A stretch of DNA of 64,000 nucleotides, from assembly GCA_032027045.1 (NCBI GenBank), contig JAVSMU010000001.1, positions 810,646 to 874,645 of the forward strand, read 5' to 3'. This document shows, piece by piece, positions 25,898 to 30,379 of this stretch. Source of the DNA: Truepera sp. (GTDB lineage: Bacteria > Deinococcota > Deinococci > Deinococcales > Trueperaceae). The notes beneath the pieces are model-generated. The model searched no databases. It worked only from the letters and a program-made list of their open reading frames with translations, and was not told the DNA's origin. Each line of letters opens with the position of its first letter. Positions within the stretch are counted from its first letter, which is position 1. Made by a program: the position numbers and the translations under genes.

Positions 25898-27325
25898 TCA
25901 GCGCAACGCGGACCGGATGAGGTGGAGGCTGGTGAAAGCGGTCCTTTCGCGTTGCCAAGGCCCGCCAAGTGGTGGCAAGTCGAGGTGCTTCACGGAAGTT
26001 CCGGAGTCACTAGCAATCGCGATAACTACCTTCGTCATCAGGCGTTCTTCCTCAACCGGTCGGCCGCCGACGACGTTCGACGCCCCGGAAACACTGCCCG
26101 GTGGGGGCGGCGCTCCGGAGTCGGTGTCAACGTCAGCGGCGCTGCGTGCGTCGAAATCCAAGTTCGAGGGCGCCGCCAGGACCGGAACGCAGGGTCCCAG
26201 GTTGGCGATGCCGATGTCAGCCTTGAAGAACGCTCTGACCGCAGCCGCGAGCGCGGCCACGAGCTCGACGGCCTCGTAAGGCAGTCGCTGAAGGAGTCGA
26301 GTGTGTACCCCGAGCGCTCTCATGGTTTCCACGTCGCATGCTATCACGCTGCCCCTTATGGCCCCTGATCGGTCCGGGGCCACGCTCGGGCTTCCCGCGA
26401 GGTTCTTGGGCCGGGCGAGCGGGTCGGTGCCGTCGTCGGCGCCGACCAGGTAACCGGTAAGCACTCCGCCCGTGGCGCCCTCCGCTATGGCGACGCGTTG
26501 TCCGCGGGCACGCAGCAGGGCCAGCACGAGGCTGGGGAGATCGTCGCCGTTGGTTCCCCACACGCTGTCGCCCAACGCTGCGGCGACCGCGTTCATGGTT
26601 GGTTTCGCGAGCATCAAAGCGTGCTCGGCGTCGTCGGCCTTCGCGGCCACGCGCACGTGGACGCCGTCGGCCTTGGCGTAGGTGGCCACGCTCGGATTGG
26701 CCTGCATGGTGAGCGCGCCGAGGGCCTCGGCCACCGTCGATTCGCCCACGCCGATCGTCTTGAACGTGTGTACGAAGAGCTTGCTGCTGGGCAGCGGGAG
26801 CCGGGGGAGGGCCTCGACCTTCCACATCCTCTCCAGTTCGCGAGGCGGCCCCGGCAACGTGACGATGTAACGGACCGATGCGCCACGCGTGACGCGCGCG
26901 AGCCAGCCCGGAGCCGTTCCGATCGGGTTGGGGAGCACCTCGGCGGAAGGGATGAGGCGGGCCTGCCTGAGGTTCGACTCGGGCATGTGACGGCCGCGGC
27001 CCGCGAAGCGCTGCCGCAGCCACGCTTCCAGCGTGGGGTCGACGTGCTGCTCCTCGCCCAACACGCCTGCTATCGCGTCGCGGGTGACGTCGTCGTCCGT
27101 GGGGCCGAGGCCGCCGGTCAGGACGACCAGGTCGCTGCGGCCGAGCGCGCCCGAGAGTGCTTGTGCGATGCGCTCCAGGTTGTCGCCGACGCGCTGCGAC
27201 CAGTAGACGTCGACCCCGATCGCCGCCAGGTCGGCGGCCACGCGAGCGCTGTTGGTGTCGACGATCTCGCCGAGCAACAGCTCCGTACCAACGGCGATGA
27301 CTTCCGCGCTGCGGATGGCTTTCAT
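25898..27325 (-). CDS. cinA: CinA-family protein with degenerate C-terminal amidase domain
   Basis: A 475-residue CinA. The N-terminal MoCF-like (COG1058) domain, linked in other bacteria to ADP-ribose pyrophosphatase activity, is intact: VGTELLLGEIVDTNS and LTGGLGPTDDDVTRDAI. The C-terminal NMN-deamidase-type domain is recognisable (SVIACDVETMRALGV..) but its active motif ESCTGG reads EGATGG at about 277-283, losing the nucleophilic Ser. About 25 extra residues with Asp, Arg and Pro (GADDGTDPLARPKN..) interrupt the next part, and another Asp/Pro-rich insert lies near the end. ATG 27325 has TATCGT 5 nt upstream and no ribosome site. Located directly upstream of recA, as in Deinococcus. Confidence 0.9.
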   Translation of the reverse strand: MKAIRSAEVIAVGTELLLGEIVDTNSARVAADLAAIGVDVYWSQRVGDNLERIAQALSGALGRSDLVVLTGGLGPTDDDVTRDAIAGVLGEEQHVDPTLEAWLRQRFAGRGRHMPESNLRQARLIPSAEVLPNPIGTAPGWLARVTRGASVRYIVTLPGPPRELERMWKVEALPRLPLPSSKLFVHTFKTIGVGESTVAEALGALTMQANPSVATYAKADGVHVRVAAKADDAEHALMLAKPTMNAVAAALGDSVWGTNGDDLPSLVLALLRARGQRVAIAEGATGGVLTGYLVGADDGTDPLARPKNLAGSPSVAPDRSGAIRGSVIACDVETMRALGVHTRLLQRLPYEAVELVAALAAAVRAFFKADIGIANLGPCVPVLAAPSNLDFDARSAADVDTDSGAPPPPGSVSGASNVVGGRPVEEERLMTKVVIAIASDSGTSVKHLDLPPLGGPWQRERTAFTSLHLIRSALR

Positions 27326-27330
27326 GAGAG

Positions 27331-27336
27331 ACGATA
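27331..27336 (-). promoter_or_regulatory. -10 box (TATCGT) for leaderless cinA-recA-rny
   Basis: On the minus strand TATCGT ends 5 nt before ATG 27325, with a weak CTGTCA 17 bp further upstream. This would drive cinA, recA and rny. It lies back to back with the promoter of the candidate small RNA. Confidence 0.45.
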
Positions 27337-27352
27337 CCAGGGGTAACAACAG

Positions 27353-27381
27353 ATGACAGGTGTCCGCCTATGTAGTAAGGT
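27353..27381 (+). promoter_or_regulatory. Promoter ATGACA-17-TAAGGT before the small RNA candidate
   Basis: ATGACA at 27353-27358 and TAAGGT at 27376-27381 are 17 bp apart. The expected start is near 27387, exactly where the first hairpin begins. No start codon follows at a suitable distance, so this promoter appears to serve a non-coding transcript or a long leader. Confidence 0.5.
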
Positions 27382-27386
27382 TGAGG

Positions 27387-27480
27387 CGGTTCCTCCCCCC
27401 TAGGAACCGGGAGAGGGCCTAGGCCCTCCACCATCTCCTCTCTTTGACCCTGCGTTCCCCCACGCAGGGTCAGACTTTTG
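27387..27480 (+). ncRNA. Candidate small structured RNA with C-rich loops (three hairpins)
   Basis: Three consecutive perfect hairpins follow a good promoter. Hairpin 1 pairs CGGTTCCT (27387-27394) with AGGAACCG (27402-27409) around a loop of six C and a T. Hairpin 2 is the 16-bp palindrome GAGGGCCTAGGCCCTC (27413-27428). A pyrimidine-rich single strand (ACCATCTCCTCTCTT) leads to hairpin 3, an 11-bp terminator stem with a TCCCCC loop. There is no open frame of note. C-rich loops and CCTCC motifs can pair with Shine-Dalgarno sequences, so a regulatory RNA of about 95 nt is plausible. The alternative is an attenuating leader of the AAA+ gene, which however has its own promoter at 27569. Confidence 0.5.
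27445..27472 (+). terminator. Strong intrinsic terminator stem
   Basis: TGACCCTGCGT (27445-27455) pairs perfectly with ACGCAGGGTCA (27462-27472), loop TCCCCC, followed by GACTTTTGG. It is the strongest terminator in the window and ends the candidate small RNA. Confidence 0.7.
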
Positions 27481-27568: not shown

Positions 27569-27574
27569 TAGCAT
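27569..27574 (+). promoter_or_regulatory. -10 box (TAGCAT) for leaderless AAA+ ATPase gene
   Basis: TAGCAT ends 5 nt before ATG 27580, with no ribosome site between. It sets the start codon choice. Confidence 0.5.
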
Positions 27575-27579
27575 TACCC

Positions 27580-29076
27580 ATGGCAAGCTCCCCGTTCATC
27601 GCAGATAGTACGTCCAGCACGCACCCCAGGCCCGCGACGACGCTGGCGGAGCTGCGCGGCACCAAGTGGGAAAGGCTCGCTGGGCGCAGTGTGAGAGACG
27701 AGATCCGCGCCAACCTCGTGGCCGCCCTGCAGCGGGGCCAACCCCTCTTCGAGGGAGTGCTCGGCTATCAAGACACCGTGGTTCCCGCCATCGTCAACGC
27801 CCTGCTCAGCCGGCATCACTTCATCCTTCTCGGGCTCCGTGGCCAGGCCAAGACGCGGATCCTGCGCCAGCTCGTAACCTTCCTCGACCCGGAGGTGCCC
27901 TACATCGCGGGCACGGAGTTGCGTGACGATCCCTTCGCGCCCATGTCAGTGGAAGGCCGAGAGGTCCTCGAGCGCCAGGGCGACGACACGCCCATCGAAT
28001 GGCTCCAACGCGATCAGCGCTACGTCGAGAAGCTTGCCACCCCGGACACCACGGTCGCGGACATCGTTGGCGATATCGACCCGATCAAGGCCGCCAAGCT
28101 CGGAACCCGGCTCGGAGACGAGCGCGCCGTGCATTTCGGCCTGCTGCCGCGGGCCAACCGCGGCCTATTCGCCATCAACGAACTGCCCGACCTCGCGGGT
28201 AAGGTCCAGGTCGCACTCTTCAACGTCATGCAGGAGGGCGACGTTCAGATCAAGGGCTACCCCATGCGCCTCCCGCTGGACCTTCTGCTCGTCTTCAGCG
28301 CTAATCCAGAGGACTACACCGCGCGCGGCAAGATCATCACGCCCCTGAAGGACCGTATAGGCAGCGAGGTGCGGACCCACTATCCGGTCAGCGTCGAAGA
28401 GGGCATGGCCATCACCAGCCAGGAGGCCTGGACCGAGCGCGAGGAGGGCGTGGTCGTGCCCACCTTCGTTGCCGAGGCGGTAGAGGAGGTGGCGTTCCAG
28501 GCGCGGATCGATTCGCGCGTCGACAAGCACTCCGGCGTCTCGCAACGCCTGCCCATCAGCCTGCTGGAGAACGTCGTCAGTAACGCCGAGCAGCGCGCGT
28601 TGTCGGTGGGAGGACCGGGCATGGCCCGCATATCGGACCTTTACAAGGCCTTACCGGCGGTGACGGGCAAGATCGAGCTCGAGTACGAGGGCGAACTCAA
28701 GGGGTCCGAGAACGTGGCGCGCGAGATCGTGCACCGGGCGATAGGTCAGGTGTACGCGCGGCGGGCCGCCGGCCTGGACGCATCGGAAGTCGTCGAGTAC
28801 TTCGAGGAGGGTAACAACCTGCGTTTGCGGGCAGACACGGCGAGTGGCGAGTGGCAGGGTCAGCTGGCCGGTGTGCCGGGGCTGCTCTCGTTGGCCGACA
28901 GCGTGGCGGCCTCGGAACCTCTACACTCCGCGGAGGGCACCGACGATCTGGTGGTGGTCACGGCCGAGTTCATCCTGGAAGGGCTCCACGCCCGGAAGTT
29001 GATAGGCCGTAGCGAGGAGTTCGGCTACTCCGCGCCCGAGAGCCGGGAACCCTCGACCAGGCCCCGGTGGAACTGA
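27580..29076 (+). CDS. MoxR/magnesium-chelatase-I-like AAA+ ATPase
   Basis: A 498-residue AAA+ protein. Walker A is GLRGQAKT (about 85-92). The Walker B region reads [40 protein letters not shown], with Asn where Asp is normal (INE), a form I associate with this ChlI/BchI-like family. [12 protein letters not shown] carries sensor 1. The N-terminal 45 residues are a low-complexity start. It lies 52 bases before a VWA protein, the classic ATPase/VWA pairing of MoxR and Mg-chelatase systems, where the ATPase remodels a client bound by the VWA partner. No chelatase H subunit or porphyrin gene is nearby, so a chaperone role is more likely than metal insertion. Confidence 0.85.
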
Positions 29077-29128
29077 GGCATAACCCGGCCGGCGCCCTGG
29101 CGTCCGGCGCGCGGAGGAGGTGAGGCCA

Positions 29129-30379
29129 ATGGCAGTAGTCCGCTACTCCAAGTATGAAGGGGGCCTTGACGACCTCGACATGGCCGACCTCATGCGCATG
29201 CTCCAAGACCGCCTCATGCAGTCGGGTTTCGAGCGCAACCCGTACGATCCCGACCCCGACTATCAGCAGTCTCTCCAGGAACTCTACGAGGCGATCGCGC
29301 AGGCGCTGATCGAGAACGCGCTGGTGAGTGAAGACGTCGTCGAAGCGGCGCTCAACTCCGAGAACTGGATGAACAGCGAGCTGGGTGAAGCGGCGCGCCG
29401 GCTGGCCCAGCGACTTGGCCAAGAGGGCTACGTACGCACGATGCCCACGGGCGAGGACCCCACCGAACCAAGCGGGACGGCGGGCGCCAACGGCGAAAGC
29501 CCCGACCCCGGGCAGGTGAAGTTCGAGCTCACCGACAAGGCCATCGATTTCCTCGGTTACAAGACGCTACACGACGTGCTGGGAGGAGCCGGCAGGTCGA
29601 GCATTGGCGCTCACGACACGCGCTTCTCGACCACCGGGGTGGAGACGATCGGCGCCACGAAGGAGTACAGGTTCGGCGACACGCTCAACCTGGACGTGCC
29701 GGCCACCCTCGGGCACGCCGCCGCTCGGGGCCTGCACGCGGGAAGCCTCGACCTGCAGGAGGACGACCTCGTGGTGCAGGAGTCGGAGTTCCACTCGTCG
29801 GCGGCCACCGTCGTCATGCTCGACTGCAGCCACTCGATGATCCTCTACGGCGAGGACCGCTTCACCCCCGCCAAACAGGTGGCGCTCGCCCTGGCGCACC
29901 TGATCCGCACCCAATACCGGGGTGACACCGTCAAGTTCGTGCTCTTCCATAACGGGGCGGAGGAGATCCCGCTCGGGCGCCTCGCGCGGTCGCAGGTGGG
30001 TCCGTATCACACCAACACGGCTCAAGGCTTGCGGCTTGCCCAGCGCCTCCTCATGCGGCAGAACAAGGAGATGAAGCAGATAGTGATGATCACGGACGGG
30101 AAGCCCTCCGCCATCACCCTCCCAGACGGCCGCCTCTACCGCAACGCCTACGGCCTCGACCCGCTCGTCCTAGGCGAAACGCTCCGCGAGGTCAACTCCT
30201 GCCGCCGGCACGGCATCCAGATCAACACGTTCATGCTGGCGCGCGACCCGGAGCTGGTGGCGTTCGTACAGCGCGTCAGCGCCATGACCCAAGGGAAGGC
30301 GTACTTCACGACGCCCCACACGATCGGCCGCTACGTGCTGCTCGACTACCAATCGAGGCGCACCAAGCTGGTCAACTGA
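29129..30379 (+). CDS. VWA-domain protein, partner of the AAA+ ATPase
   Basis: A 416-residue cytoplasmic protein. Residues 1-180 are an acidic helical region without a family I can name. The VWA domain begins near 228; its metal-ion-dependent adhesion site is DCSHS (about 231-235), with the Thr in HTNTAQGL and the Asp in MITDGKPSA. No signal peptide or membrane helix is present. ATG 29129 has GGAGGAGGTGA upstream. The partner ATPase precedes it and the two probably work as one complex. The final codons (RRTKLVN-stop) are copied downstream as a 41-bp tandem repeat. Confidence 0.88.

Follow-up and report, generated by a model that had tools for sequence, protein, structure and literature searches.

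The locus between cinA and the gene of an AAA+ ATPase

We asked whether the element at positions 27353-27480 of the window, the whole stretch of 64,000 nucleotides of Truepera sp. DNA that was analysed, is the gene of a small RNA in its own right or a leader of the operon that follows it. Read from the sequence, the element consists of a promoter, three hairpins and a 13-bp terminator with a loop of C residues. On one side it is flanked by the divergently oriented cinA (25898-27325, minus strand), whose product matches the Pfam domains MoCF_biosynth and CinA_KH and which is the first gene of cinA-recA-rny (Pfam matches downstream of it: RecA and RNase Y). Of the C-terminal, PncC-type domain of CinA, Pfam recognises just the first 32 residues or so, and the remainder seems to be degenerate or replaced. 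On the other side lies a gene for a MoxR/ChlI-like AAA+ ATPase (27580-29076, plus strand), followed by a VWA gene at 29120-30379.

A preliminary description of the locus had proposed a promoter with a 17-nucleotide spacer. Such a promoter is present on the plus strand (27353-27381), with a -35-like ATGACA at 27353-27358 and a -10 element TAAGGT at 27376-27381. ATGACA-N17-TAAGGT is too weak to be detected in a consensus scan, but it gains weight because the position of the -10 element is conserved among relatives. In 12 of the 13 aligned loci a TANNNT motif ends 5-6 nucleotides 5' of the first hairpin (hairpin A), the exception being L011, where none is clear. Moreover, an RTGACA-like -35 element is seen in most loci of the same genus. 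With the start site placed by its spacing from the -10 element, the predicted transcript is about 93 nucleotides long (27387-27479, plus strand) and scores 90.9 bits with the covariance model R1.

The -10 element that had been assigned to the ATPase gene itself, at 27569, was likewise recovered. It reads TAGCAT (27569-27574, plus strand) and ends 5 nucleotides before the ATG at 27580. In most of the relatives compared, GGTGCTAGCAT is conserved a few bases ahead of this ATG, which implies that the mRNA is leaderless or nearly so. For cinA, whose start codon is at 27325, the likely -10 element is TATCGT on the minus strand (27331-27336, read from the sequence), and a similar A/T-rich element precedes the ATG of cinA in several relatives. 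Since cinA, the RNA and the ATPase gene have separate -10 elements, they appear, as judged from the sequence, to be served by three promoters.

Hairpins and terminator

The minimum free energy of the stretch is -57.2 kcal/mol, compared to a mean of -41.4 kcal/mol for shuffled sequences (z = -4.2; 0 of 200 shuffles as low), and every one of the aligned loci folds at z -4.3 to -6.5. In members of the same genus most of the folding excess comes from hairpin C, and hairpins A and B alone reach z values of only -1.0 to -1.7; the corresponding values in other genera are -2.6 to -3.9.

Hairpin A (27387-27409, plus strand) has the stem CGGUUCC/GGAACCG in the window and GAUUGG/CCAAUC, CAGUUUA/UAAACUG or UGUUUAG/CUAAACA elsewhere. 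In the sequences compared, it plainly turns over almost completely between genera while the pairing stays. Compensatory changes in relatives, the check that the preliminary description had set for itself, are found in all of its pairs: 7 of 7 have changed on both sides across genera and 0 of 500 shuffles match the covariation score, the strength of which is overstated because the arms, which were hand-picked with bulged bases omitted for L007 and L008, were chosen for pairing. In total 95.2% of the cells are paired versus 68.2% in shuffles. Sliding the arms by one column halves this signal, the covariation is lost when the arms are slid, and arms taken from different genera pair only to 64%.

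Hairpin B (27413-27428, plus strand; GAGGGCCUAGGCCCUC, folding as GAGGGCC-UA-GGCCCUC) varies less within class I, the class of copies to which the RNA of the window belongs. Its pairing is retained as AAGGG/CCCUU and AGAAG/CUUCU in other genera and as GGAGG/CCUCC in short paralogues. Hairpin C, the intrinsic terminator (27443-27479, plus strand), consists of a stem-loop at 27443-27474 with 13 bp and CCCCC in the loop. Its T-tract is short, the tail being just CUUUU. No other terminator-like site in the surrounding 20 kb comes close to its 13 pairs (others 5-6). All of its cells (100%) are paired, and three pairs have changes on both sides. The three hairpins and the strong terminator proposed initially are therefore all present. 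The proposal that two of the loops are runs of C stands for the window genome, where loop A is CCCCCC. Class I copies generally have 4-6 C in the loop of hairpin C, whereas the C-run of loop A is limited to the window genus and some neighbouring genera and is absent in L007, L010, L011, L013 and L014.

A conserved unpaired linker

In the alignment the least variable part of the RNA is not a hairpin loop, it is CACCAUCUCCUCU(CU), the linker that joins hairpin B to hairpin C. CACCAUCUCCUCU is identical in 12 of 12 class I loci of alignment A5, and the longer form CACCAUCUCCUCUCU (27429-27443, plus strand) is identical in 11 of these 12, L009 being two bases (CU) short. The linker core AUCUCCUCUC has a predicted mean unpaired probability of 0.93 in the window and of at least 0.93 in 11 of 13 loci, the others being L008 (0.72) and L009 (0.54). 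We take the linker to resemble the anti-Shine-Dalgarno (anti-SD) tail of 16S rRNA, CACCUCCUUUCU, and it is a putative single-stranded seed of anti-SD type. Judging by their conservation, the parts that look functional are this linker and loop C. Thus, the exposed C/U-rich, anti-SD-like motifs of the preliminary description exist, but the conserved motif is formed by the linker and loop C, not by the C-run of loop A. The class I RNA of genome G009 (L009:1443-1562), in which the linker is two bases shorter, has an additional hairpin between A and B.

Distribution and synteny

A DNA search of 100 relatives found the element in genomes of the same family. It is present in 13 genomes besides that of the window, all of them Trueperaceae. 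In 11 genomes (L001, which is the window, L002-L006, L008, L009, L011, L013 and, in G007, L084) it has cinA on one side and the ATPase gene on the other. L007 and L010 display the flank with the ATPase gene only, and in L014 (G013) the element lies at cinA with another gene downstream, a matched ATPase gene being missing from the following 1.5 kb. The remaining intergenic DNA is mostly unmatched in relatives, save for the -10 region of the ATPase gene.

Searches with R1 over 111 genomes of the order gave no convincing match beyond the family (f1); a search at the level of the phylum comprised as many genomes. Within the family, R1 has no match in G017, whose genome is a single contig. The best match outside it (L091 in G081) looks like coding sequence and was discounted, as were the weak matches L093, L096 and L097, which resemble coding sequence too. 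In an exact-pattern scan of 84,980 species the element was found only in Trueperaceae/Deinococcota MAGs, apart from chance-like matches in Nocardioides, Actinokineospora, Bathyarchaeota and others, which were rejected; the one in Nocardioides (24.1 bits) falls where an rpsA-like reading frame begins. The named records that contain the element are Trueperaceae, Truepera and Deinococcales MAGs, and its core pattern occurs in none of the named Deinococcus records.

Paralogues and a direct-repeat box

R1 detects two paralogues in the genome of the window, a tandem pair upstream of rpsA at C1:1781438-1781514 (E = 1.7e-3) and 1781612-1781725 (E = 2.5e-4), corresponding to L060:2039-2115 and 2213-2326; the next match has an E-value of 1.46. 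In the tandem copies, a hairpin whose loop is CUCCC is combined with a linker of the CCCAUCCUCUUCC type and the terminator loop CCUCCCA. Class II copies lie upstream of rpsA in six genomes, namely that of the window, G001, G019, G013, G009 and G010; other copies are located elsewhere. The linker differs between the classes (CAUCUCCUCUC versus CCAUCCUCUUCC). G006 and G022, with 8 and 5 R1 matches, respectively, contain dispersed short copies of the form GGAGG...CCUCC-AUCUCCUCUCUGACGG. Finally, class I-like copies occur three times in about 1.2 kb of G014 (L070, G014:C334:2793-4015), with neither cinA nor the ATPase gene detected nearby. Homology of the other copy classes to the RNA of the window, which rests on model score, shared architecture and the linker, is likely, though for individual copies not always proved. 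Next to the class I RNA in L007 (G010:C6:53052-53303), the terminator region is partly duplicated in tandem.

A direct-repeat box, GTAAGAAT-N3-GTNA, is found about 10 nucleotides before the -10 element in many class II copies and in the class I copies of G016 and G013; the copy in the window has no such box. The tandem genes upstream of rpsA carry GTAAGAAT-N3-GTAA boxes ahead of their -10 elements. This placement resembles that of class II sites of the PhoB/OmpR type. In the window genome the box occurs in ten places versus one for the reversed control. Two of the ten are the tandem small RNA genes and two lie inside EF-Tu-like genes. Others (L100, L102, L105, L106, L107) precede genes whose products look by eye like a GGDEF/EAL protein, an HD-GYP response regulator, a type IV pilin, a DUF805 protein and a PKD-domain lipoprotein. 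It is possible that the box sites form an OmpR-type regulon of surface and cyclic-di-GMP functions.

Putative targets and mode of action

Hfq was not found in 39 genomes of the family, while the controls (E. coli, B. subtilis and others) were positive. A gene for a small protein was considered and rejected: the transcript has no open reading frame bearing an SD, only SD-less TTG starts. The search for targets, which the preliminary description had recommended, lent no support. Complements of the extended seed occur 9 times in the genome and 9 times in the control, and one of the 9 is the small RNA gene itself. AGAGGAG-N-ATG occurs 40 times versus 27, an excess as expected of any SD motif. The AGAGGAG-ATG list includes icd, sucB, an aldolase gene and a pyrroline-5-carboxylate-dehydrogenase-like gene, the last two identified by eye. 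Of four recovered relatives from the same genus, three retain AGAGGA in the icd leader; the SD of the sucB leader varies among relatives. Conservation of these leaders is thus partial at best and no target is claimed. A literature search found no paper on Truepera small RNAs. The association with DNA repair or RNA decay that had been conceived for the RNA is not upheld: its sole basis was the proximity to cinA-recA-rny, and the paralogues are found upstream of rpsA and elsewhere.

From its sequence, the stretch almost certainly encodes a regulatory RNA of about 93 nucleotides that has been long kept and several times duplicated in the stress-hardy Trueperaceae. We consider it probable that 27387-27479 specifies a small regulatory RNA that acts in trans and belongs to a new, Trueperaceae-restricted and Hfq-independent family with a C/U-rich seed. 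Since the target searches gave no support, trans-acting pairing with SD sequences is rated most likely because of the anatomy of the RNA and by analogy. The RNA would be transcribed from its own promoter, with hairpin A protecting its 5' end. The linker AUCUCCUCUC, aided by the C-rich loop of the terminator, would pair with the G/A-rich SD regions (AGAGGAG-type) of several mRNAs, block ribosome loading and expose the mRNAs to decay, all without Hfq. The different copies may answer different signals via their different promoters. A broader reading, which we offer tentatively and regard as rather doubtful, is that multi-copy, Hfq-free anti-SD small RNAs form a global post-transcriptional layer in Trueperaceae, with one copy fixed at cinA-recA and the tandem rpsA copies under an OmpR-type box common to type IV pilin and cyclic-di-GMP genes. 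To our knowledge, few conserved families of trans-acting small RNAs are known in the Deinococcus-Thermus phylum. An invariant seed, covariation and differently promoted paralogues would make this one a defined system in which to study how small RNAs find targets without Hfq, and the family lends weight to the view that anti-SD seeds rich in C and U evolve again and again in bacteria of this sort.

The main rival to pairing with mRNAs is a decoy, in which the linker would titrate an RNA-binding protein (S1, KH or cold-shock) or, as an anti-SD mimic, the ribosome, and would pair with no mRNA. Conservation of the linker extends beyond the positions that a 7-nt seed would typically require, rpsA directly follows class II copies in the six genomes and no conserved mRNA complement was found. 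However, the linker diverges between the classes, as seeds that pair with mRNAs do, and the copies are not in large arrays; on balance we hold a decoy to be unlikely. It is improbable that the element acts in cis as a 5' leader or attenuator of the AAA+/VWA operon, even though in most genomes it precedes the ATPase gene in the same orientation. A conserved -10 element beside the ATG belongs to the ATPase gene itself, a matched ATPase gene is absent from the 1.5 kb downstream of L014, none lies near the copies in G014 or near most of the dispersed ones, and the 3' hairpin appears to have no visible antiterminator alternative. With a separate conserved promoter at the ATG of the ATPase gene and further copies in other contexts, the element looks like an independent small RNA gene, as had been proposed, and not a mere leader. 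The multiple copies in G006 and G022 and the partial tandem duplicates in G010 could also be expected of a repeat or mobile hairpin element (REP/MITE-like) that carries a terminator hairpin by chance. This is very improbable, since the window genome has a single class I copy, the synteny is fixed over many genera, the copies come with a promoter-like region and a terminator of their own, and the paralogues differ by compensatory changes and are not recent copies.

Relation to known RNAs

In line with the earlier remark that no named family of this shape was known, no Rfam family scored above threshold for the element of the window, and ten loci from relatives gave nothing at E <= 1. The best match was 6C RNA (RF01066; 22.9 bits, E = 8.2, gathering score 47), and alphaproteobacterial ar7 (RF02342) reached 18 bits (E = 2.4, gathering threshold 60). 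Like the 6C RNA of Actinobacteria, the Trueperaceae RNA is an independent gene of about 75-95 nucleotides with C-rich hairpin loops and a terminator-like 3' hairpin. However, 6C has two adjacent hairpins, each with a loop of about six C, whereas the Trueperaceae RNA has three, of which loop B is not C-rich and loop A need not be. Its conserved feature, the unpaired CACCAUCUCCUCU linker, is absent in 6C, which belongs to a different phylum. According to PMC9569102, 6C is reported to work without RNA chaperones, and some species have additional copies. A diverged 6C RNA, acquired from or common to Actinobacteria, is hardly credible: 6C is the top-scoring Rfam match, has C-rich loops and, going by the title of Mai et al. 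2019 (cited in PMC9569102), binds mRNAs through them chaperone-free, but the score is far under the gathering score, RF01066 has no match anywhere in the whole genome, loop A keeps its C-run in some genera only, the extra hairpin and the invariant linker are foreign to 6C, and the exact-pattern scan places the element, chance-like matches aside, only in Trueperaceae/Deinococcota MAGs.

The CCUCCUCCC anti-SD small RNAs of Rhizobiales (SmelA075/SmelA099, 'cuckoo' RNAs) also expose an anti-SD motif, which is repeated on hairpins with variable stems (PMC3927594). There the motif sits in every hairpin loop, whereas the main copy in the Trueperaceae RNA is single-stranded between hairpins and of another sequence; loop B and, in several genera, loop A are without an anti-SD motif. 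RoxS, FsrA and RsaE of Firmicutes share with the RNA a C-rich region, which in their case pairs with the SD of central-metabolism mRNAs (PMC8216469). They differ from it in that Rfam reveals no homology, the host is unrelated and the class I linker alternates C and U. Within the same phylum, the trans-acting small RNAs OsiA, DsrO and a pprM-regulating RNA are described for Deinococcus radiodurans (PMC6843392, PMC9195949, PMC8217566); it is the R1 and core-pattern searches that set these apart from the Trueperaceae RNA. By analogy, the RNA would represent a new family among regulators of a known kind, similar to 6C RNA or RoxS in action and a member of neither. Of the general features of trans-acting small RNAs, it has an independent promoter and terminator, by sequence, and a predicted conserved structure with an accessible conserved seed.
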